IMG/VR virus record: IMGVR_UViG_3300026094_000757 | Location: 1-25,635 of that record | Reading direction: 5' to 3' (one strand) | DNA: 25,635 nucleotides | Source of the DNA: a virus | Shown: positions 3,475 through 24,586 of the stretch, piece by piece | Layout of the letters: every line of letters starts with the position of its first letter | How positions within the stretch are numbered: position 1 is the first letter of the stretch | The notes under the pieces: generated by a model | What the model was told of the DNA's origin: nothing | Databases searched by the model: none | What the model saw: only the letters and a program-made list of their open reading frames with translations | Program-made: the position numbers and the translations under genes

Positions 3475-4545
3475 TTAAGAATAAAACTGTGAATCTCTGT
3501 CATAAAACTTCTTGTTTTTAAGTTTTCCGCACACAACATTACACACAAAAGATTTTTTCAGTTTCCAATATTTCTCCCATATCTCTGTGTATTTCGGATC
3601 ATGGATAATATTTTTTATAGGTGTTTTTCTCAAATCAATGTAACCTATGTTGTTATACTCCTTATGAATATTGGTTAATTGTTTTTTTAGTTCTGGTAGC
3701 ACACTGTTAAAATTAGGTTCGTCTAGTCGTTCTATTTCATAGCGTATCCCTGCTGTTTCGCAGCAGGGATAGAGATGTTTATAAGCATCTATATAAATTT
3801 CCTTCATATGCATCGATCTACATACGATTTCTGATTCCATTGCATTTTCAAGCACTGCAGGCAGATCGGAATCTTTATAGTTTATAACTTTAGAGTTATC
3901 ATCTGGAAAAAGTTTTCCTATCTCATTACTACCTTTATCAAGAACTGAGAAACTATCGTGCCTAAATCTATAAGAGTATTTTTTAAAGACGTTAGTAAAA
4001 CCTATGTTTAAAAGATATTCCTTTAAATCGTCAAAATCGTCTCTATTATGTTCAAAACTAATAAACTGAGATTCAGCGTTGCCGCCGGATGCAATAAATG
4101 CTTTTGCATTCTCTATAATTTTATCAAAATTTGTACCTATTCTGTGCTTTTCGTGATTATCTTCAAAACCGTCAATACCAAAAATAACCCTGTGACTTTT
4201 AGGTAAAGATTTAGCAAAACGAGCCCACCATTTTGGTTTATACATGCTTGCATTTGTGTGTATAGTTAATTTCGCATTACTATTTTCTTTGGTGTATCTA
4301 CAAATTTTTTCTATATCTCTGCATATTAAAGGATCACCGTAGGTGCCACAAAAACTAATTTCCTTTACGTGTTGCAAAACTTCAAGATTCATAATTTTTT
4401 TGTAGTCTTGATAATTCCAACTAACACTCTTTACATTTTCATTAGGAAGTAATCCATGAAAATTTCTACTGCACATCGGACAACTAGCCTGACACTGAGT
4501 TGTTAGTTCAAGTTCTATTTTTTGTATATCTTGAAGTTTAAACAT
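3475..4545 (-). CDS. radical SAM protein, group A, 356 aa
   Basis: CQASCPMC at residues 18-25 gives the CX3CX2C motif that binds the [4Fe-4S] cluster used to cleave S-adenosylmethionine. The usual GGEP strand is replaced by FCGTYGDP (about 65-71). An 'HRVIFGIDGFEDNH' strand and 'KIIENAKAFI' helix follow. C-terminal cysteines (LYPCCETAG near 260, FVCNVVCGK near 336) suggest a SPASM/twitch-like auxiliary cluster domain. It is a close paralogue of 14380-15459, with the core cysteines at identical residue numbers. No Shine-Dalgarno is visible; a perfect late-promoter octamer ends five bases before the ATG. It probably modifies a peptide or sugar by radical chemistry, but the substrate is unknown. 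Confidence 0.88.
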   Translation of the reverse strand: MFKLQDIQKIELELTTQCQASCPMCSRNFHGLLPNENVKSVSWNYQDYKKIMNLEVLQHVKEISFCGTYGDPLICRDIEKICRYTKENSNAKLTIHTNASMYKPKWWARFAKSLPKSHRVIFGIDGFEDNHEKHRIGTNFDKIIENAKAFIASGGNAESQFISFEHNRDDFDDLKEYLLNIGFTNVFKKYSYRFRHDSFSVLDKGSNEIGKLFPDDNSKVINYKDSDLPAVLENAMESEIVCRSMHMKEIYIDAYKHLYPCCETAGIRYEIERLDEPNFNSVLPELKKQLTNIHKEYNNIGYIDLRKTPIKNIIHDPKYTEIWEKYWKLKKSFVCNVVCGKLKNKKFYDRDSQFYS

Positions 4546-4550
4546 TTGAA

Positions 4551-4558
4551 TATTTATA
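4551..4558 (-). promoter_or_regulatory. T4-type late promoter (TATAAATA), leaderless spacing
   Basis: A perfect TATAAATA on the minus strand ends five bases before the ATG at 4545. In T4 the octamer covers about -13 to -6, so transcription would start at or beside the A of the ATG, giving a leaderless message. No Shine-Dalgarno is present, in agreement. Confidence 0.65.
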
Positions 4559-4603
4559 TTTTACATCTGTTAATATAATAAGTGGGAGAGTACAAAATTC
4601 TTT

Positions 4604-5731
4604 TTAAATTTGGTTTAACATTTCAATGCATTCATTGTAATCTAATAAGAAATTCTTTTCCTTTTTAGATATTTCACTACTATGTAAGTAGTCTAAAAAT
4701 TGTTGCGGTATGCTGTTTTTATCTTTTAAAATTTCAATAAATTTATTATAATTAAATTCTATTTTAGGTAATAATTTTTGATAAAGAACATTGTAATCTT
4801 TATTTTCTATCAACTTTATATTTTGTGTAATTCCGAAAATCCTCTTATCTATATCCTCTTCATCATCAAAACTATAATCAAATACGTCATCATAAAGGAT
4901 AAATCCAAGTTCTTGAAGTTTTTTATGAATTTTTGGTGCTCCTAGAATTAAAAAAGGCTTTTTATGGAGAATTGCATAAAATGTTTTTTCACTCAAGTCT
5001 TTAATCACAACTTCTCCTTCAGAAATAATGTTCACAAAACCTTTGAAATACTCATCTTCGTATATTATTTCTGATATACATAAATTTTGATCTAGAGAAT
5101 TTTTTCCATTTAGATATATAGGTTTATTATGAAAATATTCAAAAATATGATCATATAAATTATCATCTAGAGTTTTCAGCCAGCTTACATAACCTACATT
5201 TATTAAATTATTTTTAGCTAAAGACTCCATCATTTTACATCTATAACTGGTTATTCTGTTGTTTAGACAAACAAATGGTTTATCTATTTTAATTGTTGTA
5301 CAGTTGCACTTGAGATGATAACTTAGGAAATTACGTAAAGATTTGTACATTAAAAATGTATTCCAGTTTATAATAGAAATTCTACTCTTAGGTAAATCAA
5401 CGCCAACTGTTTTTTTCCCTTGTTTTTCTTCAAAATTTCCGAGCCAGACTTCTAACGTACAATTATTTTCTTCTAGTATTTCATGCACATCTTCAAGATA
5501 ATTCGGACCAAAAAATCGACATTCTTCTGGTACAAAATATACAATTTTTTCGTTCTTTAAAGACTTGCATAATTTAATAAATTCGTCGTTTTGATGTGAT
5601 ATATAAAGATATACCTCATAAGGAACTTCGTGTGTTTTTAAGAAATCTGCTATTTCTCTATTATTAACATCTAAATCAATATTAGGTTCAAAATCGGGAT
5701 GTTCTTTCCAGTACCAAAAAACAAATTTCAT
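4604..5731 (-). CDS. putative glycosyltransferase-like protein with SEKTF motif, 375 aa
   Basis: The C-terminal half has LSEKTFYAILHKKPFLILGAP, then LQELGF and a D.FDYSFDDEED.D.R acidic stretch. The same pattern is in 19045-20232, so the two are paralogues. A 'SEK.F....KPF...G' loop resembles the donor-binding region of GT-B fold enzymes such as family 10 fucosyltransferases and related phage proteins; the assignment rests on this resemblance. The N-terminal half (NNREIADFLKTHEVPYEVYLYI...) looks like a Rossmann-type acceptor domain. Base composition is extremely AT-rich, more than any neighbour, hinting at separate acquisition. It starts two bases before the stop of the upstream oxygenase-like gene in a minus-strand operon and has no visible Shine-Dalgarno. 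Confidence 0.6.
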   Translation of the reverse strand: MKFVFWYWKEHPDFEPNIDLDVNNREIADFLKTHEVPYEVYLYISHQNDEFIKLCKSLKNEKIVYFVPEECRFFGPNYLEDVHEILEENNCTLEVWLGNFEEKQGKKTVGVDLPKSRISIINWNTFLMYKSLRNFLSYHLKCNCTTIKIDKPFVCLNNRITSYRCKMMESLAKNNLINVGYVSWLKTLDDNLYDHIFEYFHNKPIYLNGKNSLDQNLCISEIIYEDEYFKGFVNIISEGEVVIKDLSEKTFYAILHKKPFLILGAPKIHKKLQELGFILYDDVFDYSFDDEEDIDKRIFGITQNIKLIENKDYNVLYQKLLPKIEFNYNKFIEILKDKNSIPQQFLDYLHSSEISKKEKNFLLDYNECIEMLNQI

Positions 5732-5732
5732 A

Positions 5733-6293
5733 CTAATACAAATTTAACAAAAATTTAGGAGATCTACCTGCATTGAATCCAGCATGCCAAGCATAGACAC
5801 TATTCCATGAGTATGCGTTGCCTTTGTCGACATTTGTATAATATTCGTCTTCGATCATAAACACATGACCCGTTTCAGGCTCACCGATGTGACAATGATA
5901 TCTTTTTATATTATCTAATACTTTATATTGATCTACATGCCACGGTGCACATCTGCCAGGCATTATCATGCTTATCCAGCACGAATTATATTTTTCAATA
6001 TTATAAAATTCTACAAATCTATCAATAACGGATTGGTCAAAGTTTGTAGTAGGATAAAACATGTGCCACTCTGCGGAGCCTCCGTCCTCTACTGACTTAT
6101 AGCCTATTTCGTCCCATAATTTTTTTGTTTCTAAAAACTGTTTTGAATTAGATAGGTATTCTGGGGTGTGCTTATCTTTGCCTCCTGCTGTACTCGGGCC
6201 AATAGTAGGAGCAGTCTGATCTAACAAATCTTTAATTATGCTGTCCCAATCTATAATGTCTTTGCAATTTCCTAAAAATTTTGTTGTATTCAT
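5733..6293 (-). CDS. Fe(II)/2-oxoglutarate oxygenase-like protein, 186 aa
   Basis: The facial triad of this superfamily is visible: H119-V-D121 in APWHVDQYK and H170 in YAWHAGFNAG, with R177 or K180 placed to bind 2-oxoglutarate. The spacing and the 'CHIGEPETGHVFMIEDEYY' strands resemble aspartyl/asparaginyl beta-hydroxylase-like proteins. The expected reaction is hydroxylation or desaturation of a peptide or small molecule in the cytoplasm. The ATG shares one base with the stop of the upstream oxygenase-like gene (TAATG), and the downstream gene is the SEKTF glycosyltransferase-like protein, so these three form one operon. The substrate is not evident. Confidence 0.72.
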   Translation of the reverse strand: MNTTKFLGNCKDIIDWDSIIKDLLDQTAPTIGPSTAGGKDKHTPEYLSNSKQFLETKKLWDEIGYKSVEDGGSAEWHMFYPTTNFDQSVIDRFVEFYNIEKYNSCWISMIMPGRCAPWHVDQYKVLDNIKRYHCHIGEPETGHVFMIEDEYYTNVDKGNAYSWNSVYAWHAGFNAGRSPKFLLNLY

Positions 6294-7111
6294 TAATAGT
6301 GCTCTAGGTGATCGATGCCTATTTTTTCTTTAAAATCTGTAGTGAATTTACAATCTATTCTCAGCCCATATTCTTGCTCCATACTAAACTCACCGCCGTG
6401 CCAGTCCTGATCATTAAAAAAACATGCATGAGAGTTCACGTATGATTTATTTTTAGTAGTTGGATTCCAAATATAAAATCCTCTTTTCAAAAAAGGCCTA
6501 ATATGGATAAATTCTATATTATGATTAGAGTATCCATTTTCATCACCTTGTGTGCTATAATCTATATCTCTATGTTCGAAAGGCTGGCAGGAAGAATTTG
6601 ATACAAAAAATATAACCCTTCCTACAGACTCTACTATATTGATCGTTTTTAAATTTTCTACCCATTTTGTTACGTTAGGAAAAAATTGAGATTCGTACGT
6701 TTTTTTGTGCTGACTCTCGCCCCTATCTGACATGTTACTTGCATCTTCCCAAAGAAAATAATAAGAGTACGGATCGTGAGCTCCTAGAGCAGATTTTAAA
6801 AATACTAAAAAAGTGTTTCTTTCTTCGAAATTTTTGAAATCCTTTGGCCATAGTTCAAGACCTGCTTTTTTAACTGGATCGTTTTTATCTAATTTTTCAA
6901 ATTCTTCAAAAGCTTTGTATATAGGTTTCCAATTTACAATGTAACTACTATCGTCGAAGTTAAACGCAGGCTTCATCCATGTCCCTTCTTTTGCAAAGTT
7001 TTTTGCAAGTGCAAAGCCTTTGCAAATTTCTGGATGAAGATTTTTAAAACCTTCTATATCAAGAAATCTGTCTAAATCAACATAGGGCTTACCGTCTATT
7101 CCACGTATCAT
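6293..7111 (-). CDS. Fe(II)/2-oxoglutarate oxygenase-like protein, 272 aa
   Basis: H180-R-D182 in PFEHRDIDY, H238 in QDWHGGEF and R251 in YGLRIDC make an HxD...H...R set typical of Fe(II)/2-oxoglutarate oxygenases. The N-terminal ~150 residues are a separate alpha-rich region without a recognised fold. I placed the start at the ATG 7111 rather than the in-frame GTG at 7117: AGGAG (minus strand, 7117-7121) lies five bases before the ATG, and the GTG would fall within it. It is the first gene of the minus-strand operon that continues to 4604. It shares only the active-site layout with the 186-residue neighbour, so they are distant family members rather than a recent duplication. Confidence 0.7.
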   Translation of the reverse strand: MIRGIDGKPYVDLDRFLDIEGFKNLHPEICKGFALAKNFAKEGTWMKPAFNFDDSSYIVNWKPIYKAFEEFEKLDKNDPVKKAGLELWPKDFKNFEERNTFLVFLKSALGAHDPYSYYFLWEDASNMSDRGESQHKKTYESQFFPNVTKWVENLKTINIVESVGRVIFFVSNSSCQPFEHRDIDYSTQGDENGYSNHNIEFIHIRPFLKRGFYIWNPTTKNKSYVNSHACFFNDQDWHGGEFSMEQEYGLRIDCKFTTDFKEKIGIDHLEHY

Positions 7112-7134
7112 AATCACTCCTAACCAATTATAAC

Positions 7135-7142
7135 TACTTATC
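7135..7142 (-). promoter_or_regulatory. possible late-type promoter (GATAAGTA)
   Basis: GATAAGTA on the minus strand lies 23 bases before the ATG at 7111, with AGGAG in between. The same octamer precedes the plus-strand gene at 9133, supporting it as a functional variant of TATAAATA. The divergent gene at 7157 has only a poorer match (CATAAATT at 7148-7155) directly against its ATG. Confidence 0.45.
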
Positions 7143-7156
7143 AGCTACATAAATTT

Positions 7157-7852
7157 ATGCAAACAAAATTTGACTATTATTATAACAATGTACCAGGGCA
7201 TGGTAAATGTAGAAACAATTTGGTTTACACCAGCTTAATTTCTCATGATAAAAAGACATTTTGCCAGTGGTACTATAATGATAAAGTTTACCACAGTAGT
7301 CAAAATAAAGTTATTGACCCTGATTTAATGCAAGAAAAATGGAATAGGGAAGTTTATTTTTTGTCAGAGATGAACAACAATTACCCAGAACACCTTCCAC
7401 AAATTCTTGACATAGATCATAAAAATAAAAAGATTTTCCTTGAGATTGACGGTGTAGATTTCTGGCAGAAATCCTGTCCAAAAAAGCAAGATTACGAAAG
7501 TGTATTACAAGACTGGGACAATCAAATGCTAGAAATATTTAGAGCTTATAAAGATTTGAACTTATATAAAATGAGTCTACATCCTAGCAGTTATTTTGTA
7601 ATTAATGGTAAATTAAAAAGTATAAATTACTTTTTTTGTTATCATGAAAAAGAAAAAACTTTAAAAATAAAAGATGTACTAAGTCATATTAGCAACGAAA
7701 GATTAAAAAAACTTAATCCATTAATAGAATCCAAAGGAATAGATATAAACAACGATACTCTTCTATTACAAGCACAACACCTAGCACTTGACAGTTTTAA
7801 AAATAATTTTCCGTCAACTTTTATCGATAAAATAAAGAATTTGTATGTTTAA
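7157..7852 (+). CDS. kinase-like fold protein with degraded catalytic motifs, 231 aa
   Basis: The order of elements resembles small aminoglycoside/LPS-kinase-like proteins. KWNREVYFLSEM (61-72) fits helix C, PQILDIDHKNKKIFLEIDG (81-99) fits strands 4-5 and the hinge, LHPSSYFVINGKLK (141-154) stands where the catalytic loop should be, and SINYFFCY (155-162) where IDFG would lie. The loop His is present but the catalytic Asp and the metal-binding Asp (here Asn157) are missing, so it may be a pseudokinase or use altered chemistry. This fold assignment comes from pattern reading only. It starts divergently from the oxygenase operon and overlaps the GNAT-like gene by eight bases. Confidence 0.55.
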   Translation: MQTKFDYYYNNVPGHGKCRNNLVYTSLISHDKKTFCQWYYNDKVYHSSQNKVIDPDLMQEKWNREVYFLSEMNNNYPEHLPQILDIDHKNKKIFLEIDGVDFWQKSCPKKQDYESVLQDWDNQMLEIFRAYKDLNLYKMSLHPSSYFVINGKLKSINYFFCYHEKEKTLKIKDVLSHISNERLKKLNPLIESKGIDINNDTLLLQAQHLALDSFKNNFPSTFIDKIKNLYV

Positions 7853-8414
7853 GATCAAAAAATATAGCCACGATTTAGATTTAGATTCTTTTTATAAAGA
7901 GGCACACAAGAGAGGATTTACTAACAACTCTTCAAAAAAAGTATTGATAGATTGTTTCGATTGTGAAAAAGAAAAACAGGTATGGATACTATATTATCAG
8001 AATGTTCCTGTAGGTTCAGTAGCAGCTCATTCTTTCTTCGATGTAATGGGAGGAAATTCTTATAGAATAGCTGTTAGAACATGTGTTCTAACTAACCTTC
8101 TTACTAATCACATGTATGGAAAAAACCTACGTACTAAAAATGTTATTATGCATCATCAAAATCCAACCGCTCAGTTTTTAATTCCAGCCTGCATTAATTG
8201 GGTTCCAGATTCTGGATCAACCTATATCACAACTAATAATCTAGAAGCCGGCACTCAATCGAAAGTAGATAAAATTTTTGCTCCGCTAATGGAACAAAAG
8301 GGAATAATGAACAAGGAAAAAATTGTAGAATACAGAGGAGCTAAACAAACTGTTTGGAAGTTTAACAAACAAAAGTTTTTAGCTGATCTGTCTTTATATC
8401 CCAGGTGGTGTTAG
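7845..8414 (+). CDS. GNAT-like acyltransferase candidate, 189 aa
   Basis: The region VWILYYQNVPVGSVAAHSF (about 46-64) resembles strands 2-3 of GNAT acetyltransferases, where a strand ending in 'G' follows the self-description 'x.pVG'. YRIAVRTCVL (73-82) would be strand 4. The R/Q-x-x-G-x-G/A acetyl-CoA loop is not clear, so the assignment is tentative. The C-terminal half contains NWVPDSGSTYITTNNLEAG and a basic helix. The ATG overlaps the kinase-like stop by eight bases, implying coupling. The 3' end overlaps the convergent oxygenase-like gene by 21 bases. An alternative is an unrelated phage-specific fold. Confidence 0.45.
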   Translation: MFKIKKYSHDLDLDSFYKEAHKRGFTNNSSKKVLIDCFDCEKEKQVWILYYQNVPVGSVAAHSFFDVMGGNSYRIAVRTCVLTNLLTNHMYGKNLRTKNVIMHHQNPTAQFLIPACINWVPDSGSTYITTNNLEAGTQSKVDKIFAPLMEQKGIMNKEKIVEYRGAKQTVWKFNKQKFLADLSLYPRWC

Positions 8415-9077
8415 TTCTATGTAGAAACTATCAGGAAGATTTTTTTCCAATAGTTGTACATGTTCTTCTTCGATATCAAATCTAGCGTATCCCAAATCAA
8501 GATTGACAGAAAAGTCGGTTATAATTTTATTTTTATTAGCAAAATTCAACCATGGACTGATATAATTGTCAAACTTATACCTAGGATTTTCTCCGCCTGC
8601 TATTAGTTTTACACCTTTAGAATTCTTAAGTTGATTCTCCTGCAACAAAGATCTTACTACTAATTGATAACGAATAAATTCACCACAATTTATTGCAGTG
8701 TGGAGTTTTCCAGTATCCATATGATACCATGCAGCATCTGCTTTTGTAGGATAGGTAATGTTTTCTGTTAAATCTATCAAATACGCAGCATCGCCTGTAA
8801 GATTTAAATGGTATCTGTCATCAATATCAGCATGTTGTGTATAACAAGTTTTTGATTCTAAACCAATTACCCGTGCTTCGCCGACAGGAAAAGTAAGAGC
8901 GCCCAATAGTTTTGACCAACAAGAATTTTTAAATTCATCTTTAATTATCCATGGGTCATAAAAAAAGTTTCCAGTTGGCTTGTTTATAGGTGTTTTGAAA
9001 TCTGAAAAATTAAAAACGTGCTCTTGACTTTTTTCTAAATCATGAGAATCCACAGTATAATTAGTTTTTCGTATCAT
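8394..9077 (-). CDS. Fe(II)/2-oxoglutarate oxygenase-like protein, 227 aa
   Basis: H82-A-D84 in CYTQHADIDDRYH, H126 in GKLHTAINCG and R136 in EFIRYQLVVR form the HxD...H...R pattern, with a spacing matching aspartyl/asparaginyl hydroxylase-like enzymes. The ~75-residue C-terminal extension has no assignment. I set the start at the ATG 9077 rather than the in-frame GTG at 9092: the octamer GGTAAATA ends five bases before that ATG, so the GTG region would be part of the promoter. It is monocistronic on the minus strand, divergent from the PP-loop gene, with its tail overlapping the GNAT-like gene. It is the third oxygenase-like gene in the window. Confidence 0.72.
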   Translation of the reverse strand: MIRKTNYTVDSHDLEKSQEHVFNFSDFKTPINKPTGNFFYDPWIIKDEFKNSCWSKLLGALTFPVGEARVIGLESKTCYTQHADIDDRYHLNLTGDAAYLIDLTENITYPTKADAAWYHMDTGKLHTAINCGEFIRYQLVVRSLLQENQLKNSKGVKLIAGGENPRYKFDNYISPWLNFANKNKIITDFSVNLDLGYARFDIEEEHVQLLEKNLPDSFYIELTPPGI

Positions 9078-9082
9078 AATCC

Positions 9083-9090
9083 TATTTACC
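9083..9090 (-). promoter_or_regulatory. late-type promoter (GGTAAATA), leaderless spacing
   Basis: GGTAAATA on the minus strand ends five bases before the ATG at 9077, the same spacing as the perfect octamer before 4545. Six of eight positions match the T4 late consensus. Confidence 0.45.
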
Positions 9091-9118
9091 ACTCTTAATT
9101 TTTGAAAACACCTTGATT

Positions 9119-9126
9119 GATAAGTA
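9119..9126 (+). promoter_or_regulatory. late-type promoter (GATAAGTA), near-leaderless spacing
   Basis: GATAAGTA ends six bases before the ATG at 9133, and no Shine-Dalgarno is visible. It forms a divergent pair with the octamer at 9083-9090. Confidence 0.45.
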
Positions 9127-9132
9127 CATCAA

Positions 9133-9876
9133 ATGCAGGATTACAATTATATTACAATAGACAACTTGCAGTTTCCAATAAGTCAAAATTGGAAAAAAAT
9201 AGGAATAAGCGTTAGCGGAGGAGCCGACAGTGCTCTTTTATTATACCTTTTAACAAAAAATTGCATCGATTGTGAAATACATGTTATATCTCAAATAAGA
9301 TGTTGGAAAACTCGTCCTTGGCAAGAACATAACAGTCTAGAAGTCTTTAACTGGATAAAGTCTAAATTCCCAGAAAAAAAATTCAAACGTCATACAGGAT
9401 TTATTCCGCCTGAATTAGAATGGGGAGAGAAAGGACCTACAATTAAAGACGAATACGGAAAAATCAAAAGCGGCGATCAAATAATACTTCGGTCTCATAA
9501 CGAATATATTTGTTACAAAGAAAAAATTGATGCTTGGTATGCTGCTGTTACTCGTAATCCAGATGTACCGATAAGTGGCGGCGTGCCTGATCGAGACGAA
9601 GGATATTTACCTGTGGTATTTGAACATATGAATAAAATCGTATGCCATCCTTTTATAAACACTCGTAAAGATTGGATTATAAAACAATATTACAACAATA
9701 ACATCCTAGAACTACTTGAATGCACTAGAAGCTGTGAAGGTGATAAAATACACTATCCTGAAATTTTTGGTGATCTAGATTATAAAACCTATATACCCGG
9801 GCAAACTGTGCCAGAATGCGGTGAGTGCTTTTGGTGCAAGGAGAAAGAATGGGCCTTAAATCGTGTTAAAGAATAG
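9133..9876 (+). CDS. PP-loop ATP pyrophosphatase, QueC/ExsB-like, 247 aa
   Basis: SVSGGADSALLLYLL (26-40) is the SGGxDS pyrophosphate-binding loop of N-type ATP pyrophosphatases, which adenylate a carboxylate or amide. The C-terminus has CTRSC (197-201) and ECGECFWC with Cys229, 232 and 235, like the zinc site of QueC (7-cyano-7-deazaguanine synthase). None of the other queuosine or deazaguanine genes (folE, queD, queE type) is present: the radical SAM genes downstream have CX3CX2C rather than the CX14CX2C of many QueE proteins. It is therefore more likely a relative that activates a different acid. It begins a plus-strand operon with two radical SAM genes, overlapping the first by 14 bases, so a joint pathway is likely. 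Confidence 0.75.
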   Translation: MQDYNYITIDNLQFPISQNWKKIGISVSGGADSALLLYLLTKNCIDCEIHVISQIRCWKTRPWQEHNSLEVFNWIKSKFPEKKFKRHTGFIPPELEWGEKGPTIKDEYGKIKSGDQIILRSHNEYICYKEKIDAWYAAVTRNPDVPISGGVPDRDEGYLPVVFEHMNKIVCHPFINTRKDWIIKQYYNNNILELLECTRSCEGDKIHYPEIFGDLDYKTYIPGQTVPECGECFWCKEKEWALNRVKE

Positions 9877-11134
9877 CTCTTGTACCTTTTGTATGCATCC
9901 ATTTACTGGTCTAGCTACTAGAGAAGATGGTGCTATCAAAATCTGCTGTAGAAGCCAGCCTGTAGGGTGGATACAGGATCAAAGCCTCGAAGAAGTCTGG
10001 AACTCGGACAAAATGAAAGAAGTCCGTAGACAGGTTCTAAGCGGTGAGAGGCCCGATGTCTGTATCCCATGTTTCGACTTAGAAGATCAAGGCGTAGAGA
10101 GCTTAAGACAGCGTCATACACGCGGAGTTATACCCGAAGCTAGAGTCAACCTTTATTCTGATGCTTTAGACAAACTAGAAGACGACTATTCAATGCCGTT
10201 TGAATTACCTACTATGGAGATTAAAATTAATAATCTCTGTAACCTAAAATGTCGCATGTGTAATCCTCTTGATTCTACTTCGTGGACTGACTGGAAGGAA
10301 GTAGAACCGTTTTACGAAAAAGAAAATAACTACCTAGTACCTGTAGTAAGAAAACTAACAAAAAGACCAGGGCAATACATAGGAGCGTTTGACGATAGTA
10401 AACACTGGTGGGAAAGTTTTGAAAAGCTGCTGCCGCATTTTAGAAGAGTAGAGTTTGCAGGAGGCGAGCCTCTAATGGATCCTAACCATTACAAAATTCT
10501 TGACATGCTTAAACCTTATGCTGACAACATTGAAATTAAGTATGCTACAAATGGCACGAAACTAGGTATATCAAAAGGCAGAACCATATTCGACTACTGG
10601 CCACATTTCAAATCGGTTGCTGTCAACATAAGTATAGACGGTATACATGATGTGTATGAATACATTAGAGGCAATGGCGACTTTGCGCTTATTGAAGAAA
10701 ATATTAAAAAAATTAAACAGATTCCTAATGTGTCAAGAATTGTAGGAGCATTTACTGTGCAATCAAATAATATAATGCAGATAGACAAAGTAATAGAATA
10801 CTTTCTAAAAGATTTGAAAATAATTTTTTACAGCCACAGAGTAAATTATCCTAGAGCACTGTCGGCGCAGGTTTTACCTACAGAATTAAAACAACAGGTT
10901 ATAGAAAAACTTGAAAGTATGAAAGATCGAATCAATTCATATGAAATTATTAGAGATAGTGAAGTTTTAAAAGAATTTACTTTAACACAAATACAAGATA
11001 ATATAAATTTCCTTAATGCAATCGATTTAAGTGAACATTGGTCTGATTGTGTGCAATTTAATCGAAAACTAGACGCAACAAGACAGCAAGGTCCTCTAGA
11101 AAAAATTATACCAGAATTCAAACCCTATGTATAA
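9863..11134 (+). CDS. radical SAM protein with N-terminal twitch-like domain, group C, 423 aa
   Basis: The N-terminal ~75 residues hold Cys7/Cys10, CC at 28-29 in the DGAIKICC strand, and C67/C70 (VCIPC). This is the layout of the N-terminal twitch domain of the 'twitch domain-containing radical SAM' family, which binds an extra Fe-S cluster. The core has LCNLKCRMC (Cys126, 130, 133) and FAGGEP at 198-203. GTG at 9863 is chosen because it keeps Cys7/Cys10; the next in-frame ATG would lose them. It overlaps the PP-loop gene by 14 bases and the next radical SAM gene by eight. The reaction is unknown; SPASM/twitch enzymes often act on peptides, some on sugars. Confidence 0.88.
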   Translation: MLKNSSCTFCMHPFTGLATREDGAIKICCRSQPVGWIQDQSLEEVWNSDKMKEVRRQVLSGERPDVCIPCFDLEDQGVESLRQRHTRGVIPEARVNLYSDALDKLEDDYSMPFELPTMEIKINNLCNLKCRMCNPLDSTSWTDWKEVEPFYEKENNYLVPVVRKLTKRPGQYIGAFDDSKHWWESFEKLLPHFRRVEFAGGEPLMDPNHYKILDMLKPYADNIEIKYATNGTKLGISKGRTIFDYWPHFKSVAVNISIDGIHDVYEYIRGNGDFALIEENIKKIKQIPNVSRIVGAFTVQSNNIMQIDKVIEYFLKDLKIIFYSHRVNYPRALSAQVLPTELKQQVIEKLESMKDRINSYEIIRDSEVLKEFTLTQIQDNINFLNAIDLSEHWSDCVQFNRKLDATRQQGPLEKIIPEFKPYV

Positions 11135-15494: not shown

Positions 15495-15502
15495 TATTTA
15501 TA
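15495..15502 (-). promoter_or_regulatory. T4-type late promoter (TATAAATA) for the triple radical SAM operon
   Basis: A perfect octamer on the minus strand in the 63-base gap between the methyltransferase-like gene and the ATG at 15459, leaving a leader of about 30 bases. It would drive the operon from 15459 to 11995. Confidence 0.55.
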
Positions 15503-17753: not shown

Positions 17754-17777
17754 AGTATACTATACTACACTCAAACA

Positions 17778-19001
17778 TTATCTCTGTCTAGTATTTCCAT
17801 AATGTATAACTCTACTAACAGAACTTGTAAATTTCCTCCAGGGATCTATCACGATGCTAAATGGCGGAATAGGACAATAAATTTCATCTTGAGTTTTGGT
17901 TTCTGTGTAATCGTAGGTTACCGAGGCGGAATGTGCCATGAGAAATACACCAGGTTCTGTAGGTTGGTAAAAGTCGCCTGTATAAGGATCTATGTAGGTG
18001 GGTTTAATTCCTGCTTCTTGAACATAGTGTCCAACTAATAGACTGTATGATCCGTCTGTATAGGGTACTTGGGGTTTGTATGCTTTGCCGTGTATGTATA
18101 TTGGCATGTTATTTTCATTGGCGTGTTTAACTAGTTCAAGCGCAAGGTTTTGTGCTTGGATCTCTCTTGCACTCATAATAGCATCAAACAAGTCGTAGCC
18201 TAGGTCAAGTTCCTGTGCCATATAGCGTAAGGCAATATTGTCTCTTGGATGACAGGCGCCCCCGTCTCCCATTCCTGCTGTCATATACTGAGGACTCATA
18301 ATACGTTTGGTAGAATTGGCAAGTGCTTCTGTAACTACATCAACATTGATATTTTTCTGTTTTTCCGCAACGTCCTGAATCATGTTAACCAGAGATATTT
18401 TTGTAGATATAAAAGTGTTGTAAAAAACCTTGATACATTCGCATTCGTCATAGGTGCCTACAACTGTAGTAGGCTCGTTTTCCATTACAGTATCGTAGAA
18501 TTCTTTTAACTGTTTTGCATCACCTGTTTCAGATCCGTCTTCTGTGCCAACCATAATCATTTCTGGATTAACCATGTCCCAGGCAACAGATCCCATTGCT
18601 ATAAGGTAAGGGTTATAAACAAATCTTGTGTTTTTCACAAGTGGCATAAATTCTTTTCTAGTAGTGCCTGGCAACACTGTAGAAATTAATACTAACAACT
18701 GATCTTTGTTCATATGCTTGTCTGCTTTTTCAAGAACAGACTTTACAGTATCATATGAAAAGTCTTTTGGCGGTAAATGATATGTTGGCATACTACCATC
18801 ATAGTCAGCATCATGCGGTGTTGGCACCGCTACAAATACAATATCGCAGTCTTTTACACAAGCTTCAATAGATGTTTTAAACTCTACTAGATCGCTAGGA
18901 AGGGGCTCAAGGTCGTATCCTTTTACAGAATGTCCTTTTTTTACAATTTCTTCCGCGCACGGAAGCCCTAATTTACCTACTCCGATATATCCTATGTTCA
19001 T
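17778..19001 (-). CDS. nucleotide-sugar dehydrogenase-like protein, 407 aa
   Basis: GxGxxG at 7-12 (GVGKLG), VAVPTP (58-62), STVLPGTT (107-114), K191 and N195 with K201 (KVFYNTFISTK), and catalytic Cys250 with Asp254 (GGACHPRD) are the landmarks of the UDP-glucose/GDP-mannose 6-dehydrogenase family, which oxidises a sugar to a uronic acid in two steps. The loop normally NPEFLREG reads NPYLIAMG here, so both conserved Glu residues are replaced. Length is normal for the family. AAAGGGT lies just before the ATG. It probably heads an operon with the DxD transferase, radical SAM and methyltransferase-like genes down to 15523. Confidence 0.82.
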   Translation of the reverse strand: MNIGYIGVGKLGLPCAEEIVKKGHSVKGYDLEPLPSDLVEFKTSIEACVKDCDIVFVAVPTPHDADYDGSMPTYHLPPKDFSYDTVKSVLEKADKHMNKDQLLVLISTVLPGTTRKEFMPLVKNTRFVYNPYLIAMGSVAWDMVNPEMIMVGTEDGSETGDAKQLKEFYDTVMENEPTTVVGTYDECECIKVFYNTFISTKISLVNMIQDVAEKQKNINVDVVTEALANSTKRIMSPQYMTAGMGDGGACHPRDNIALRYMAQELDLGYDLFDAIMSAREIQAQNLALELVKHANENNMPIYIHGKAYKPQVPYTDGSYSLLVGHYVQEAGIKPTYIDPYTGDFYQPTEPGVFLMAHSASVTYDYTETKTQDEIYCPIPPFSIVIDPWRKFTSSVSRVIHYGNTRQR

Positions 19002-19011
19002 TTTTACCCTT

Positions 19012-19019
19012 TATAAATA
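19012..19019 (+). promoter_or_regulatory. T4-type late promoter (TATAAATA)
   Basis: A perfect octamer on the plus strand between the divergent starts at 19001 and 19045, leaving about 20 bases of leader before the ATG at 19045. Confidence 0.6.
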
Positions 19020-19044
19020 TGATATTAATAATTATACCTTAACT

Positions 19045-20232
19045 ATGAAAAAACTACAAAAAGCGATTGAAAGCAACATATACATCCATAATACAGAAAG
19101 CACAATATTCACAGTTTTATTGGATAAAGTTCTACACGAAAATCCTGATATAGAGTTAGGTAAAGAATGCTACGTACATGCACTGCTAGGTTATCCTAAG
19201 TGGTGCAAAGATTCTGATATATTTTGTTACATAAAAGATAAGCCTCTACGCTTACTGCAAAAAAATAAAGCATATTTTGTATTTGATGCTTCAACCGAGG
19301 GCTTTAGCACTCTGTATGATCAGCCATTTTTTGATATGTTATATTTTAATTGCGAAAAGTATAGGGTCGATCCTTCGCAAATAATTTTTGTTTCATCAAA
19401 CCTTAGAGACGAAAAAAATATAAAAATTTATTCTGTTAAAAATAATAAAAAACCATTAAACGTATTTTCCTTTATTTCTTTTGAACAGGTGCTAGCAATT
19501 GACGACGGACAGGCACTAAAAAAATGTGACGAGTTTTTTAAAAATTCTTACCAACAATGCGTAAAGCAATTTGATAACAAATACTTTTCTGCTCTTAGCC
19601 GCGTAAATCGAGAATGGAGAATGTATTCTCAAGCGTTAATTTATAATAGTGACTTAGAAAAATATGCATTATTAAGTCATGATAAAATTGGAAAAAATTT
19701 TACTAAGTTTCTATACGATAAAAACCTATCAAACAATAAAGTCAGTGATTTTGAAAATGCCTTGCCGCTTATAATTGATCAAAAAGATTTTTCTAAAAAC
19801 TGGGCAATTGATACTCCTTATAACAATATTCACGATCGAACACTTTTTCAAATTGTAAACGAAACTTTAGTTGAAGATCACCACCGGAGTTCTTTATTTT
19901 ACAGTGAAAAAACATTTAGACCAATAGCAAAGTTTCAGCCTTTTGTTATATGGGGGCAGCCCGGTGCAAACACACAGTTAAAAGCTGTAGGGTATGATTG
20001 CTACGAAGACTGGTTTGACTTAATATTTGATAACGAAAATGACCATGTAAGGCGGCATAAAATGATGATAGAAATGCTACAGCATGTATGTGCAGAAATT
20101 GGCAAATTATCTAGAGACGAACAAATCGAATGGCGTTTTAAGAATATAGAAGTTTTGAAACATAATTTTAAAACAATGGCATCGTCAGAGTGGTCTAGAA
20201 ATAAATTAAAAGAGTTTTTAAAGAAAATCTAG
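19045..20232 (+). CDS. putative glycosyltransferase-like protein with SEKTF motif, 395 aa
   Basis: The C-terminal region YSEKTFRPIAKFQPFVIWGQP, then LKAVGYDCYEDWFDLIFDNEND...R matches 4604-5731 segment by segment, so these are paralogues. The N-terminal half contains FDASTEGFS, DMLYFNCEKY and IIFVSSNLRDEKN. The likely role is sugar transfer (GT-B-like), but no direct catalytic residue can be named. I chose the ATG at 19045 over one at 18994, because the earlier start overlaps the divergent gene and puts the late-type promoter inside the coding region. The last four bases overlap the convergent radical SAM gene. Confidence 0.6.
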   Translation: MKKLQKAIESNIYIHNTESTIFTVLLDKVLHENPDIELGKECYVHALLGYPKWCKDSDIFCYIKDKPLRLLQKNKAYFVFDASTEGFSTLYDQPFFDMLYFNCEKYRVDPSQIIFVSSNLRDEKNIKIYSVKNNKKPLNVFSFISFEQVLAIDDGQALKKCDEFFKNSYQQCVKQFDNKYFSALSRVNREWRMYSQALIYNSDLEKYALLSHDKIGKNFTKFLYDKNLSNNKVSDFENALPLIIDQKDFSKNWAIDTPYNNIHDRTLFQIVNETLVEDHHRSSLFYSEKTFRPIAKFQPFVIWGQPGANTQLKAVGYDCYEDWFDLIFDNENDHVRRHKMMIEMLQHVCAEIGKLSRDEQIEWRFKNIEVLKHNFKTMASSEWSRNKLKEFLKKI

Positions 20233-21389
20233 ATGCTTTTCAGTTCTGGAAAATAATCTAGTAAATTTCTATTCCTTTTTCTGTCATAGATTTTTGTCTG
20301 TTCGAGAAAATTATTTCTGTTTTCGTGATTATAATTGGTTTTTTCTAGTGTTTGTATTATGCCATCTATTTGTGCATTTAGATTTTCATCGAAATTCCTA
20401 GTCTTTAGTTCATCAATAATTTTGTGTTTTAGATTATCGTTTATTACGGAAAAATTATAAAAATCAGGTTCTATTAATGTGTAGAGTGTAGGCGAGTACT
20501 TTTTTGAGTATAAATTATTCTCTAAAATATAATTGTAAAAATTATTCAAGGTAGATACATTCAAAACACTGATAACTGAATTTGTGCTTAACAATATATG
20601 CGGTGTGTATTCTTTTATTTGGCGTATATTTTTTTCAACTTGCTTCCAATTTGTTCCTTCGCGAATATATTCTGCCTTTTCCCCATAATGATCTATACTG
20701 GCATATATCTCTATATCAGAAAAATGTTTCCACAGGTCTAATACATTTTTGTTTTTGAATTTTAGTTTTGATAAATTAGAATTATATCTTAATCTAACAT
20801 CTGTTTTACCTAAAGTAATAAGTTTTTCTAAAATTGCATAATGCTTGTCTGTTAAGAGAGGTTCGCCGCCTGCGAAATAAAATTCTTCAACTCCTTCGAA
20901 ATAAGGTTCTAATTCGTTGTACAATTTATCGTTAGAATTTCCGCCAGCAAAAATGTATACATTCTTGTTTCCGTCCTCTTTTGCCCAAGCCGAAGAAAAA
21001 GTTGCACAGCAGGTACGACATTTAAAATTACAGATATTGCTCCATCGGATATCAAGATATTTAAAATCCATTTTTTCTAAATATCCATCTGGCTGCGTAA
21101 AATCTTCTAGAAATTTATACTTTTTAAATTTTTGGTTAAAATGTGTTCTTGCACTATTTCCGGTCATTTTTTCGCTTTGGTAGCAGGCATTACAATGCGG
21201 CGATTCTAATCCGTTAATCATGTTATAGCGTAGATTTTTAAAATTTTCATTGTTCCATATTTCTTCGATACTGGAGTTTTTTGCATCGCCGAGCGGATAT
21301 CTATAATCGCCGATACAACAGGGCAGTACTGATCCGTCTGCATTTACATATAGATGCAACCATGGAAGAATACAAAACGTATTACTCAT
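20229..21389 (-). CDS. radical SAM protein with N-terminal twitch-like domain, group C, 386 aa
   Basis: FCILPWLHLYVNADGSVLPCC (Cys6, 24, 25) and HCNAC (66-69) make the N-terminal Fe-S domain. ICNFKCRTCC holds the SAM-cluster cysteines 120, 124 and 127, and FAGGEP lies at 172-177. The shortest group C member; it keeps the YFPEL-type C-terminal tail. Its start overlaps the stop of the SGNH-like gene 21382-22299 by eight bases, so esterase-like and radical SAM proteins are produced together. Confidence 0.88.
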   Translation of the reverse strand: MSNTFCILPWLHLYVNADGSVLPCCIGDYRYPLGDAKNSSIEEIWNNENFKNLRYNMINGLESPHCNACYQSEKMTGNSARTHFNQKFKKYKFLEDFTQPDGYLEKMDFKYLDIRWSNICNFKCRTCCATFSSAWAKEDGNKNVYIFAGGNSNDKLYNELEPYFEGVEEFYFAGGEPLLTDKHYAILEKLITLGKTDVRLRYNSNLSKLKFKNKNVLDLWKHFSDIEIYASIDHYGEKAEYIREGTNWKQVEKNIRQIKEYTPHILLSTNSVISVLNVSTLNNFYNYILENNLYSKKYSPTLYTLIEPDFYNFSVINDNLKHKIIDELKTRNFDENLNAQIDGIIQTLEKTNYNHENRNNFLEQTKIYDRKRNRNLLDYFPELKSI

Positions 21390-22299
21390 CTAACCATCCT
21401 GATTCGGTTAGCAAATGATCTGCCCATACAGCATGCCCTTTGTGATTAGGATGCATCGAGTGAAATTTATTTGCTTTTAAAAAATCATTAGACTTTTCAA
21501 TTTTTTCCATCTCTTTGTTTAACCATTCTAGATTAAAATTGATTTTGAAAAAATCTCTATTTTTGTACATTTCGTCTAACCACCCTATTGACTGAAACGA
21601 TAAACTTCTATACTTTATATTAAGTAGTTGTGCTGATTTGGCAATCCAACTAGGTTGTATTTGTTTAACATGCTCTAATTTTATATGAGTATTCCACTTG
21701 CAGAAATTTTTCCACACAATTACATCAAGATTCGAGTTGTCTCTTTCTATTTTATCTAAGATATCTAAAAATATTTCATCATATTTCTTTAACCATTCAT
21801 AAAAAGAAATATTTTGGTTTCTCTGATAAAGTTTTTGAATCGGATGATTATAATCTAGAGTATTTAAATGTGCGTGTTCTCTCGAAGGTTCGGTGATTTG
21901 CATTACTAACAGAATTTTATCGTAATTAAATGTTCTTTTAATATAAGCAATTATTCTTTCTAATTCAGAAAACATATACCCGTTCGAATTACCCGGGCGT
22001 GCATATTGATATAAATCCACGTTTAATTCTTTTGCAATTCTAGGTCCAAATGTGTATTCAAGCTGTGTATCTAGACTGTAATCCTGTAATGCACTGGCAA
22101 TTCCTTTTACATTTTCACCGTATGTCCAACTTTCACCTATATTAACAAGGACAGTGTCAGAACCGGTTATTGCATGAACTTCAGAATATTTTACAGGCAG
22201 TTCTACCCAGTCTGGATGAATATTATCATCGTTCAGCATAATTTTTGCTTTACGATAATACTCAACATTTACGGGTTCGGCATGTTCGTACCATTGCAT
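21382..22299 (-). CDS. SGNH/GDSL hydrolase-like protein, 305 aa
   Basis: VNIGESWTYG (52-61) has the block I nucleophile Ser57, YARPGNSN (99-106) supplies the Gly/Asn of blocks II-III, and SMHPNHKGH (281-289) looks like block V with His283. The Asp that usually lies three residues before the catalytic His is a His here (H280), so the triad is incomplete or rearranged. Family members are esterases or O-acetyl hydrolases/transferases on glycans or lipids. AGGAG six bases before the ATG and TATAAATA 20 bases upstream fix the start. There is no signal peptide, so it acts inside the cell or on the virion. Confidence 0.68.
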   Translation of the reverse strand: MQWYEHAEPVNVEYYRKAKIMLNDDNIHPDWVELPVKYSEVHAITGSDTVLVNIGESWTYGENVKGIASALQDYSLDTQLEYTFGPRIAKELNVDLYQYARPGNSNGYMFSELERIIAYIKRTFNYDKILLVMQITEPSREHAHLNTLDYNHPIQKLYQRNQNISFYEWLKKYDEIFLDILDKIERDNSNLDVIVWKNFCKWNTHIKLEHVKQIQPSWIAKSAQLLNIKYRSLSFQSIGWLDEMYKNRDFFKINFNLEWLNKEMEKIEKSNDFLKANKFHSMHPNHKGHAVWADHLLTESGWLDE

Positions 22300-22319: not shown

Positions 22320-22327
22320 TATTTATA
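22320..22327 (-). promoter_or_regulatory. T4-type late promoter (TATAAATA)
   Basis: A perfect octamer on the minus strand, 20 bases before the ATG at 22299, with AGGAG (22306-22310) between. It is one half of a divergent promoter pair. Confidence 0.65.
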
Positions 22328-22341
22328 GTATCCAATAGATT

Positions 22342-22349
22342 ATTAAATA
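22342..22349 (+). promoter_or_regulatory. possible late-type promoter (ATTAAATA), leaderless spacing
   Basis: ATTAAATA ends four bases before the ATG at 22354; no Shine-Dalgarno is visible. Two positions differ from the T4 consensus, but the placement matches the other leaderless-type sites. Confidence 0.4.
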
Positions 22350-22353
22350 TAAC

Positions 22354-23214
22354 ATGGAATTAAAAAAACCCAGAAGACTGTTTACCTTTGGTTGTTCATT
22401 TACAGATTATAAATGGGCCACTTGGGCAAATATACTAGGATATGAACTTGGCTGTGAATTTTATAATTTTGCTAGGAGCGGTGCTGGCAATCACTACATT
22501 ACTAATACACTAGCACAAGCAGACAGTTATTTTGATTTCTCTAAGGAAGACCTAGTTGTTGTTTGTTGGACTAATATTTCAAGGGAAGATAGGTGGATTA
22601 GTAATCAAGGCTGGCTTACACCAGGAAACATTTATACCCAAAACGAATACGATTCGGCTTTTGTAAAAAAATGGGCAAACGAAACTCATTTTGGTTTGAG
22701 AGATTTTTCGAATATTCATTTAGTAAAAAACCTGTTAGAAAACAAAGAAGTTCCGTATAAATTCGTCTCCATGTGTGATCTAAGTCAACAGAGTCAATGG
22801 CAAACAATTCAAAAGAGAAAGCAGAACGATCCTATATCTAAAATATCAAAATTATATCAAGAAACACTAGAACATGTATCTTGTAATTTTTATGATGTTT
22901 TATGGGATAATGATATTTTTGTAAAATTTGAAAAAGATCGAAAAACTATTCATCCGCATCATTGCGACGGACATCCTACTCCTGAAGAACACTTAACATT
23001 TTTACAGTATGCGTTGAACTACACATTCACTGATAAAACATTAGACACTGTGAAAAATTTACAAAACGACTGGGTAGAATATTTAAAAAAATGCTATTCT
23101 ACCACGAAAAGAGACACACCAATCCACGAATTACCAGCTAGTGTAGAAAGAAAATTACGTGCAAAATATAAATTACGCCTTAGTGACAACGTTTCTGATA
23201 CTATTTTCCATTAA
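22354..23214 (+). CDS. SGNH/GDSL hydrolase-like protein, 286 aa
   Basis: FTFGCSFTDYKWATW (10-24) provides Ser15 of block I, ARSGAGNHYI (40-49) blocks II-like Gly/Asn, VVVCWTN (68-74) block III, and CDGHPTPEEH (204-213) block V with Asp205 and His207. Asp and His are separated by one residue rather than two, a variant often seen in phage members of the family. It is divergent from the other SGNH-like gene, which shares the fold but little sequence. Probable intracellular esterase or acyltransferase on a glycan; substrate unknown. Its tail overlaps the convergent radical SAM gene by 14 bases. Confidence 0.72.
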   Translation: MELKKPRRLFTFGCSFTDYKWATWANILGYELGCEFYNFARSGAGNHYITNTLAQADSYFDFSKEDLVVVCWTNISREDRWISNQGWLTPGNIYTQNEYDSAFVKKWANETHFGLRDFSNIHLVKNLLENKEVPYKFVSMCDLSQQSQWQTIQKRKQNDPISKISKLYQETLEHVSCNFYDVLWDNDIFVKFEKDRKTIHPHHCDGHPTPEEHLTFLQYALNYTFTDKTLDTVKNLQNDWVEYLKKCYSTTKRDTPIHELPASVERKLRAKYKLRLSDNVSDTIFH

Positions 23215-24586
23215 CTTCTTCACATAAATTCCAAAAGTTTTGCATCTCAGGAAAAGTTTCTACAAGACTTGCATTTCTTCTACGATCATGTTCCGAAAAC
23301 CATGCATTAAAGTTTTTACGAGCAATGATCAGTTTATCTTCTTCATAGTTAGTAGTCTCCATGTAGTCGACAACCCGCTTAAACTTTTCGTATTCTAGAT
23401 CTGTAAACTTAGTTCTATCTGCATTGTTTACGTTCAGTTTTATAAACTCTAAATGTTCACGCATATACGGCATGAATTCGTCCTTGGGGAGAATGTTCAT
23501 GTCAAATATAGCAGGTTCTTTTAGGTGAGGAGTGTCAAAACGAATTCTCTGCCATTGTGTCTCGTTTTCGTCTGAATTATATTTGTTTCTCCATTCTAGT
23601 ATCTTTTCTAGAAGGCTAGTAAAGCTAGTAACGCCGAATATGTTAAAAGTAATCATAAATGTTACAGGCAATCCTGTGTTAGAAAGATAATAGTCAAGAT
23701 TGCGTTCCCATAACGCAATATCTAAGCCGTGACGTGCATACTCAGCACGTTTGCCCCAAGTGTCAATAGAAGTGTACAGTTTAAAACTCTTTATAGCACC
23801 GATATTGCGTAGATGCGTAATCCTTTGTACTAATTGTTCTACTAATTTAGGCTTGACTCCTAGGTTAGAGTTAATTTCTATCTGAATATGCGGTTTAGGA
23901 TCTTCTTCCAGTCTATCAAACAAGTCCCATGTGCTTTTGTGCATCAAAGGTTCGCCGCCTGTTATGCGCAGTATGTTTAGCGTCTTTGAGGCTTCAGGCC
24001 ACCACTTCCACCATGCTTCCACATAGGGATTTTCTTCCTCTTTCTGATAGATTTTAAACCAGTCTATATCCTGTCTATGGTCAGTAGAGGTATCATATGG
24101 TCCGTGATCGTTAATTTCCTTCCAGTATCTTGAACTTGCTTTAGGATGGCAATATCCGCATTTGAAATTACACTCGTTTGAGAAAGAAATTTCTATGTAT
24201 TCGGGATTTACATTGTATTCTGCACCGCCTTGTTTAATTTCTTCCAGTCTTTCCGGTGTGTATATCGAAGCAGTTTTAATATGACGGTCTGACACATAGT
24301 CTTTACCCATTGCTTCGATCTTCCAGCAATAATTACAGCCGGTAGGCTGCTTGCCTTTCATCATAAACTCACGTTCTTGCTTCTTTTGCTGAGTATTATG
24401 AAGTGCAGCAGGATTAGTTTTAATTTCTTCTAGAGGTATTGGATGCGGAGCAGGATGATAACAACTATGCGTTTCCCCCGTTTGAAGGTAGATCGTAGTA
24501 TGATGCCACTTTGCCATACAGAAAGTGGGTGATATTTCTCGATCGGTGTGGGGAATAATTTCCTTTATCTTTTCTAGTTCGCTCAT
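23201..24586 (-). CDS. radical SAM protein with N-terminal twitch-like domain, group C, 461 aa
   Basis: The N-terminal domain has FCMAKWHHTTIYLQTGETHSC (Cys23, 42) and CNYC (84-87); the usual CC pair is a single Cys followed by YH, so cluster ligation may differ from the other group C members. The core has ECNFKCGYC (Cys139, 143, 146) and ITGGEP (208-213). The C-terminal TFPEM tail matches its relatives. ATGA overlap with the upstream DxD transferase-like gene (24583-25482) shows coupled translation. Substrate unknown. Confidence 0.87.
   Translation of the reverse strand: MSELEKIKEIIPHTDREISPTFCMAKWHHTTIYLQTGETHSCYHPAPHPIPLEEIKTNPAALHNTQQKKQEREFMMKGKQPTGCNYCWKIEAMGKDYVSDRHIKTASIYTPERLEEIKQGGAEYNVNPEYIEISFSNECNFKCGYCHPKASSRYWKEINDHGPYDTSTDHRQDIDWFKIYQKEEENPYVEAWWKWWPEASKTLNILRITGGEPLMHKSTWDLFDRLEEDPKPHIQIEINSNLGVKPKLVEQLVQRITHLRNIGAIKSFKLYTSIDTWGKRAEYARHGLDIALWERNLDYYLSNTGLPVTFMITFNIFGVTSFTSLLEKILEWRNKYNSDENETQWQRIRFDTPHLKEPAIFDMNILPKDEFMPYMREHLEFIKLNVNNADRTKFTDLEYEKFKRVVDYMETTNYEEDKLIIARKNFNAWFSEHDRRRNASLVETFPEMQNFWNLCEEVNGK

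Follow-up and report, generated by a model that had tools for sequence, protein, structure and literature searches.

The question raised by the viral DNA record IMGVR_UViG_3300026094_000757 of IMG/VR, whose full 25,635 bases are called the window here, is what a phage gains from nine radical S-adenosylmethionine (SAM) genes crowded together with glycosyltransferase-, oxygenase- and hydrolase-like genes. An initial annotation of the region with the nine CX3CX2C proteins (positions 3475-24586) had regarded it as a complete tailoring pathway, which decorates a virion or host-envelope glycan or peptide late in infection. Our analysis identified true radical SAM genes in a cassette whose core order, genomic site and flank recur in other phage contigs and which has counterparts in bacterial chromosomes. 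The reading that we favour, with a probability of about one half, places the window in the hypervariable host-recognition cluster of a T4-like phage: its genes would form a cassette for glycan tailoring, which the phage took over from bacteria or has in common with them and which is expressed at least partly late.

All nine CX3CX2C open reading frames are present without internal stops. Their assignment to the radical SAM enzymes was borne out by profile search, in which 9/9 passed the curated cut-off of Pfam PF04055 (33.7-46.8 bits versus 29.5 bits); the scenario that several of them are something else can thus be set aside. Because true homologues and not motif matches were counted, the density of radical SAM genes is far above chance. 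The nine genes are:

3475-4545, minus strand: rS1, rSAM-A type (CQASCPMC; PF04055 46.8 bits), paralogue of rS6
9863-11134, plus strand: rS2, with N-terminal twitch (NF033640; N-terminal SPASM/twitch PF13186)
11127-12011, plus strand: rS3, rSAM-B type (PF04055)
11995-12993, minus strand: rS4, rSAM-B type (PF04055), absent from the sister contig L009
12990-14387, minus strand: rS5, with N-terminal twitch (NF033640)
14380-15459, minus strand: rS6, rSAM-A type (PF04055)
16103-17110, minus strand: rS7, rSAM-B type (PF04055)
20229-21389, minus strand: rS8, with N-terminal twitch (NF033640)
23201-24586, minus strand: rS9, with N-terminal twitch (NF033640)

Four of the nine, rS2, rS5, rS8 and rS9 (328, 387, 370 and 318 bits), are full-length members of the N_Twi_rSAM family NF033640, for which a full-length score above 170 bits together with an N-terminal twitch was demanded; these N-twitch proteins possess four invariant Cys in the N-terminal part (C6, C24, C66, C69) and three in the core. 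Unlike them, the remaining five (rS1, rS3, rS4, rS6, rS7) reach at most about 48 bits with this model and represent separate families, in which auxiliary Cys are weaker or C-terminal. The rSAM-A family comprises rS1 and rS6, which share the motif CQASCPMC and 37% identity, and the rSAM-B family rS3, rS4 and rS7 at about 24% identity. Hence, three families have been expanded in the region rather than one recent tandem array. Regarding the chemistry, the aminocyclitol dehydrogenase BtrN has an auxiliary domain to which the N-terminal twitch can be aligned, and the radical SAM core aligns with cytosylglucuronate decarboxylase, a sugar-acid enzyme; both likenesses may serve as leads only.

Does this neighbourhood exist elsewhere? 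Four further genes of the window belong to the block that recurs:

8394-9092, minus strand: ox3, aspartyl/asparaginyl beta-hydroxylase-like (profile match to 7v4f, E 1e-15)
9133-9876, plus strand: PP-loop ATPase, QueC/ThiI-like, with C-terminal Cys cluster (resembles TilS/ThiI/QueC; four invariant Cys)
15523-16113, minus strand: MT, putative methyltransferase-like (by motif; kept in 70/76 rSAM-A loci)
17067-17753, minus strand: GT_a, GT-A fold glycosyltransferase-like with DxD motif (AlphaFold predicted local distance difference test score, pLDDT, 90.8)

IMG/VR was searched with alignments of three families; among about 600 matching stretches listed for each, at least 552, at least 581 and at least 556 stretches encode relatives. 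The viral loci fetched from there and the window make up a set of 239 loci (193 after dereplication), which contain 670 N-twitch, 194 rSAM-A and 395 rSAM-B open reading frames according to profile searches, with up to 11 radical SAM genes per locus of 18-21 kb. A single-sequence search with rS1 gave no close relatives, whereas the family-alignment search did find relatives. Because the loci were sampled via three of the families, gene order was tested instead of mere presence. Far from being unrelated elsewhere, the neighbours proved strongly conserved, and the recurring block reads GT-A, rSAM-B, MT, rSAM-A, N-twitch radical SAM, followed by a facing rSAM-B, N-twitch radical SAM, PP-loop and beta-hydroxylase. 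The contiguous codirectional series rSAM-B, MT, rSAM-A and N-twitch was found in 33/193 dereplicated loci versus a mean of 0.36 and a maximum of 4 after shuffling, while the facing block rSAM-B, N-twitch and PP-loop was found in 21/193 (shuffled mean 0.48) and its extension by ox3 in 15/193 (shuffled mean 0.008). Moreover, 75 of the 80 loci that were obtained with GT-A queries, and hence not picked for radical SAM genes, carry at least one such gene. Among the four core members, protein distances covary (Mantel r 0.39-0.76, p 0.0005), of which shared phage ancestry accounts for a part, and the cassette genes overlap with median gaps of -5 to -38. In 16 virus records chosen as rich in radical SAM genes, 5-19 of these genes were counted in each.

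The cassette is also mosaic. The sister contig L009 is 89% identical to the window across 8.7 kb (rS9 to rS7) and 86% identical again from rS3 on; MT, rS6 and rS5 are swapped for alleles at 43-50% protein identity, with flanking genes at 83-98%. Similar mosaics occur in L092/L172, L171, L093 and L094. Compared with L009, rS3 has 88% protein identity and a ratio of nonsynonymous to synonymous substitution rates (dN/dS) of 0.10, rS7 96% identity and 0.08, rS8 98% identity, and rS9 a dN/dS of 0.04. Over the segments shared between sister contigs the ratio is 0.04-0.15, which corresponds to purifying selection; hence, the cassette genes are maintained as functional proteins.

The place of the cassette in the phage genome can be read from its flank, which consists in the window of:

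1-798, plus strand: VWA/DUF2201 protein, 5' open, flank marker (PF09967 52.7 bits; phrog_1314)
788-1078, 1111-1350, 1350-1958 and 1948-2250, plus strand: u1-u4, small conserved phage genes, flank markers (phrog_13789, phrog_15894)
2300-3430, plus strand: tail-fibre-like protein with Mtd_N domain (PF18454 46.6 bits versus 26.3)

Relatives of the VWA/DUF2201 protein exist in 675 phage records, and the same flank is seen in G001, L187 and L087, while the u-gene flank adjoins the cassette in about 15 other loci. The position of the Mtd_N fibre gene matches in G001 and L187. G001 (locus L135), a contig of 156 kb, encodes a T4-type gp23 capsid protein (E 2e-83); its locus comprises VWA, u1, u4, the Mtd_N fibre gene, about 33 kb of cassette genes and then long structural or fibre-like proteins, which were recognised as structural by eye. 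Accordingly, an Mtd_N fibre gene borders the cassette on one side in the window, and fibre or structural genes bound the locus in G001. The site corresponds to the host-recognition cluster described for pelagimyophages (PMC7029224).

Which other enzymes accompany the radical SAM proteins? Besides the four genes given above, the window encodes:

4604-5731, minus strand: g2, SEKTF-type glycosyltransferase (43% to the SEKTF patch of 18994-20232; shared profile family)
5733-6293, minus strand: ox1, 2-oxoglutarate (2OG) oxygenase-like (invariant HxD...H; weak beta-hydroxylase match, E 0.011)
6293-7117, minus strand: ox2, 2OG oxygenase-like (H182/D184, H240 and R253 invariant in the window protein and 4 relatives)
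7157-7852, plus strand: g5, degenerate kinase-like (family profile; weak Ser/Thr kinase match, E 0.009)
7845-8414, plus strand: g6, putative acetyltransferase-like by eye (conserved neighbour in 19 loci)
17778-19001, minus strand: UDP-glucose/GDP-mannose dehydrogenase family protein, UGDH (PF03721 and PF00984; phrog_9148, E 2e-93)
19045-20232, plus strand: SEKTF glycosyltransferase, GT-B fold (open reading frame opens at 18994)
21382-22299, minus strand: SGNH1, SGNH/GDSL-like (motif; PF00657 18.5 bits, below the cut-off)
22354-23214, plus strand: SGNH2, SGNH-like (conserved GCSFT, SGAGN and DGH blocks)
24583-25482, minus strand: GT_b, GT-A fold glycosyltransferase-like, paralogue of GT_a (BLAST identity 31.5%; family A7)

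The companions named by the initial annotation held up to different degrees. The dehydrogenase, the GT-A and GT-B transferases, ox3 and the PP-loop protein stand, whereas the SGNH proteins are assigned by motif and the methyltransferase is a motif call that found no support in any profile searched. Both DxD proteins are real, but the second one, GT_b, falls just outside the range 3475-24586. Profile searches against the Protein Data Bank by sequence gave nothing useful for GT-A and MT and a chance-level match for the SEKTF protein; the two transferase folds were settled by structure models. The model of GT_a adopts a GT-A fold, with a VIA Z score of 11.3 to B4GALNT1, and the D57-x-D59 motif is invariant. 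The SEKTF model has a GT-B fold with Z about 11 to the T4 beta-glucosyltransferase (BGT; Z 11.3) and to alpha-1,3-fucosyltransferase, and alpha-glucosyltransferase (AGT) is also similar. Such a modelled fold by itself names neither the sugar nor the acceptor. The assignment of ox3 as aspartyl/asparaginyl beta-hydroxylase-like rests on the invariant residues H87/D89, H131 and R141 and on profile similarity to solved members; ox2 gave no profile match. The PP-loop protein of the window does not match PF06508 (QueC), while its relative in G008 reaches 24.6 bits versus a cut-off of 22. The g5 family has the look of a degenerate protein-kinase fold and is conserved beside oxygenase genes.

Related clusters are not restricted to phages. 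Relatives of rSAM-A were detected in 39 genome contigs, many of them of Bdellovibrionota. In a quick tree of this family, a phage clade of 26 holds both rS1 and rS6 with a value of 99 in the Shimodaira-Hasegawa-like approximate likelihood ratio test, and elsewhere phage and bacterial rows interleave. The L267 chromosome carries PP-loop, 2OG oxygenase-like, two rSAM-A, rSAM-B, N-twitch, SEKTF, UGDH, another rSAM-A, GT2-like and membrane GT39-like genes, followed by secE, nusG and ribosomal protein genes, and in L250 rSAM-A, two GT-A, MT and N-twitch genes lie between mdh/sucCD and ndk (neighbours named by eye in both cases). Like the phage set, the bacterial clusters (Bdellovibrionota and others; L250, L255, L267) combine rSAM-A with N-twitch genes and share, variably, rSAM-B, MT, GT-A, SEKTF, UGDH and PP-loop genes, but they differ in being chromosomal, in their housekeeping flanks and in the presence of GT2 and membrane proteins. 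The clusters in L267 and L250 speak for a role in envelope glycans and for exchange between bacteria and phages. Radical SAM arrays are also found in marine metagenome-assembled genomes (MAGs) named Gammaproteobacteria and Chloroflexi, i.e. L265 (G019:C3) and L285 (G020:C1), which were rejected as bacterial evidence because the contigs carry gp23 and are phage contigs misbinned in MAGs. L265 contains in addition genes resembling, by eye, adenosine 5'-phosphosulfate kinase, carbamoyltransferase, sugar epimerase and methylthioadenosine/S-adenosylhomocysteine nucleosidase. For L261/L266, the gp23 of the MAG sits on a different contig. In L271, L275, L276 and L287 (Rhodobacteraceae/Defluviimonas) a lone rSAM-A gene is located near a GT-A family gene, accompanied in L271 and L275 by a putative sulfotransferase gene recognised by eye.

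The time of expression was addressed via promoter boxes. T4-type late genes use TATAAATA, of which the window contains 4 exact copies; this number is at chance level, and the copies are informative only by their position, checked across loci. All 4 lie just upstream of a gene on the same strand, and 3 of them at a workable distance of 21-36 nt:

15495-15502, minus strand: late-promoter box TATAAATA upstream of rS6
19012-19019, plus strand: late-promoter box TATAAATA upstream of the SEKTF gene
22320-22327, minus strand: late-promoter box TATAAATA upstream of SGNH1

The fourth copy, at 4551-4558, is only 6 nt away from the listed start of rS1; the box may be fortuitous, or rS1 may truly start further inside. 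Across the loci, ATAAATAT, an overlapping register, ranked first and TATAAATA second among 56 permutations for the share near cassette starts; the shares found up to 60 nt upstream were 0.19 and 0.14, respectively, versus a median of 0.024 for the permutations. The postulated late expression thereby receives modest support from this consensus argument, for transcription of some of the cassette units. The N-terminal extension of the SEKTF protein (18994-19044) is probably untranslated: it contains the promoter box, is missing in L009, whose homologue begins at the likelier start 19045, and has low model confidence, with residues 1-35 of the longer form below a pLDDT of 50.

What could such a cassette produce? 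A glycan-related function, the part of the decoration claim that stands, is supported by the GT-A and GT-B folds, UGDH and the bacterial counterparts with GT2 and GT39-like genes. The dehydrogenase would make a uronic acid nucleotide, the carboxylate of which might be activated and amidated (or thiolated) by the PP-loop enzyme. The radical SAM enzymes, probably equipped with auxiliary Fe-S clusters, could then perform C-H chemistry on sugars or the assembled glycan, for which dehydrogenation, epimerisation, deoxygenation or C-methylation are candidates. Oxygenases, the methyltransferase-like protein and the SGNH proteins may be responsible for adding or trimming hydroxyl, methyl and acyl groups, and the transferases would attach the sugar units. 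Finally, late in infection the product might be placed either on the fibres of new virions or on the host envelope, where it would mask the receptor or exclude superinfecting phages. The completeness of the pathway could not be upheld: no full sugar-nucleotide route is readable, and the gene content differs among phages. Several points weigh against the glycan reading as a whole. UGDH is the only complete sugar-nucleotide step in the window and was found in only 60/239 loci, the methyltransferase and SGNH assignments are weak, and the 25.6-kb fragment includes no T4-like hallmark or core gene (gp23, portal, terminase). Twitch and SPASM radical SAM enzymes, furthermore, act mostly on peptides. 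A more far-reaching proposal is put forward tentatively, namely that a previously undescribed radical SAM multi-enzyme pathway, kept as one unit in both uncultivated T4-like phages and bacteria (Bdellovibrionota, for example), uses radical chemistry to modify a surface glycan or a fibre protein that serves phage-host recognition.

The main rival, which appears rather unlikely to us, is a post-translational modification of a virion protein by the radical SAM enzymes, i.e. of the adjacent Mtd_N protein or tail fibres, with the glycosyltransferases acting on the same protein. The four proteins with N-terminal twitch and four invariant Cys are typical of peptide-modifying enzymes, the cassette adjoins the Mtd_N fibre gene here, in G001 and in L187, the radical SAM genes of L010 are interleaved with structural genes, and ox3 resembles enzymes hydroxylating aspartyl residues. 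However, homologous clusters in bacterial chromosomes lack phage fibres and stand beside membrane glycosyltransferases. Moreover, no precursor or leader gene occurs in the cassette, where called genes are at most 63 bp apart, and thus no precursor peptide gene lies by the maturases as in clusters for ribosomally synthesised and post-translationally modified peptides, a remote precursor being conceivable.

A second rival is a hypervariable island that gathers independent accessory genes acting separately, without any single pathway. The varying gene content, with L009 lacking rS4 and having replaced alleles of MT, rS6 and rS5, fits such an island, as does the gradual divergence of pelagimyophage clusters (PMC7029224). 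Yet the core order is far above shuffling, the distances covary, the genes overlap and a related gene set exists in bacteria; the order test in particular disfavours a random collection, and we regard this explanation as improbable.

Still less probable is phage DNA hypermodification, in which the radical SAM enzymes would act with the QueC-like PP-loop protein in a 7-deazaguanine or other base pathway and the transferases would glycosylate the base. The PP-loop family is QueC-related, a QueE-like open reading frame was seen by eye elsewhere in G001, and BGT and AGT, which the SEKTF model resembles, glucosylate DNA; but the cassette contains no further recognised base-modification enzyme, the likeness to BGT is equally shared with fucosyltransferases and many other GT-B enzymes, and the bacterial counterparts adjoin membrane glycosyltransferases. 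Thymidylate synthase was uninformative as a marker of thymine hypermodification. A viperin-like or other small-molecule synthesis (antimetabolite, cofactor) is very unlikely. Although the prokaryotic viperin model (NF038283) is one of the closest in NCBIfam, the best radical SAM protein of the window scores 47.8 bits, far below the cut-off of 180 bits, and similar scores are obtained with MoaA and others.

That T4-like phages can carry dense sets of radical SAM genes has already been published (PMC2853527, PMC5332604, PMC7029224). The Campylobacter phages CP220 and CPt10 each possess 11-12 radical SAM genes and an exchangeable module of five genes (PMC2853527); they are likewise T4-related myophages, and their module (our locus L248) is next to sugar-transferase and baseplate/PAAR genes, but the homology is distant (about 25% protein identity), an amidinotransferase replaces PP-loop/MT, and the GT_a and MT families are missing. 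The 183-kb T4-like environmental phage genome TARA_ERS488813_N000010 has 12 radical SAM genes, reported in the context of Fe-S metabolism in a passage that treats neither their order nor their functions (PMC5332604), and is likened here by the published description. Pelagimyophage host-recognition clusters combine glycosyltransferases, UDP-glucose 6-dehydrogenase and radical SAM cassettes in a hypervariable region beside the tail fibres of T4-like marine phages (PMC7029224); the window differs from that description in its nine radical SAM genes in 21 kb and its conserved ordered core. Within this open-access literature, the conserved core order, the fixed site and flank and the bacterial counterparts are not described in the portions of the three papers at hand and are regarded as new. 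Positions 1-12000 of the window gave no megablast match to cultured phages, and GT_a and MT had no tblastn match in 50,697 cultured-phage records, hence up to now only bacteria and uncultivated phages are known to carry the system. Neither a tRNA nor any Rfam feature was detected in the window.

For years, multi-radical-SAM sets have been recorded in phages with no function assigned to them. Through the conserved order, the fixed site and the bacterial counterparts, such an inventory becomes a defined cassette, the core of which (rSAM-B, MT, rSAM-A, N-twitch, PP-loop and beta-hydroxylase) can be tested. If a modified surface sugar is built, radical enzymology would take part in the surface arms race between phage and host and could yield chemistry that is new for carbohydrates or peptides.

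Some observations concern other arrays. An IscA-type carrier is not a general companion, with only 4/17 records rich in radical SAM genes passing the cut-off. In L010:5839-7174, an A-type Fe-S carrier gene (PF01521) overlaps the end of an N-twitch radical SAM gene amid structural genes, which suggests that some phages may supply Fe-S clusters to their radical SAM enzymes. L072 and L029 represent a second array type, in which the rSAM-B/MT core is missing and almost all of the 8-11 radical SAM genes are of the N-twitch kind. Finally, the cultured Vibrio phage K566 (L247:14971-24432) carries at least 3 N-twitch radical SAM genes near a PagP-like lipid A acyltransferase gene and is a possible laboratory entry point.

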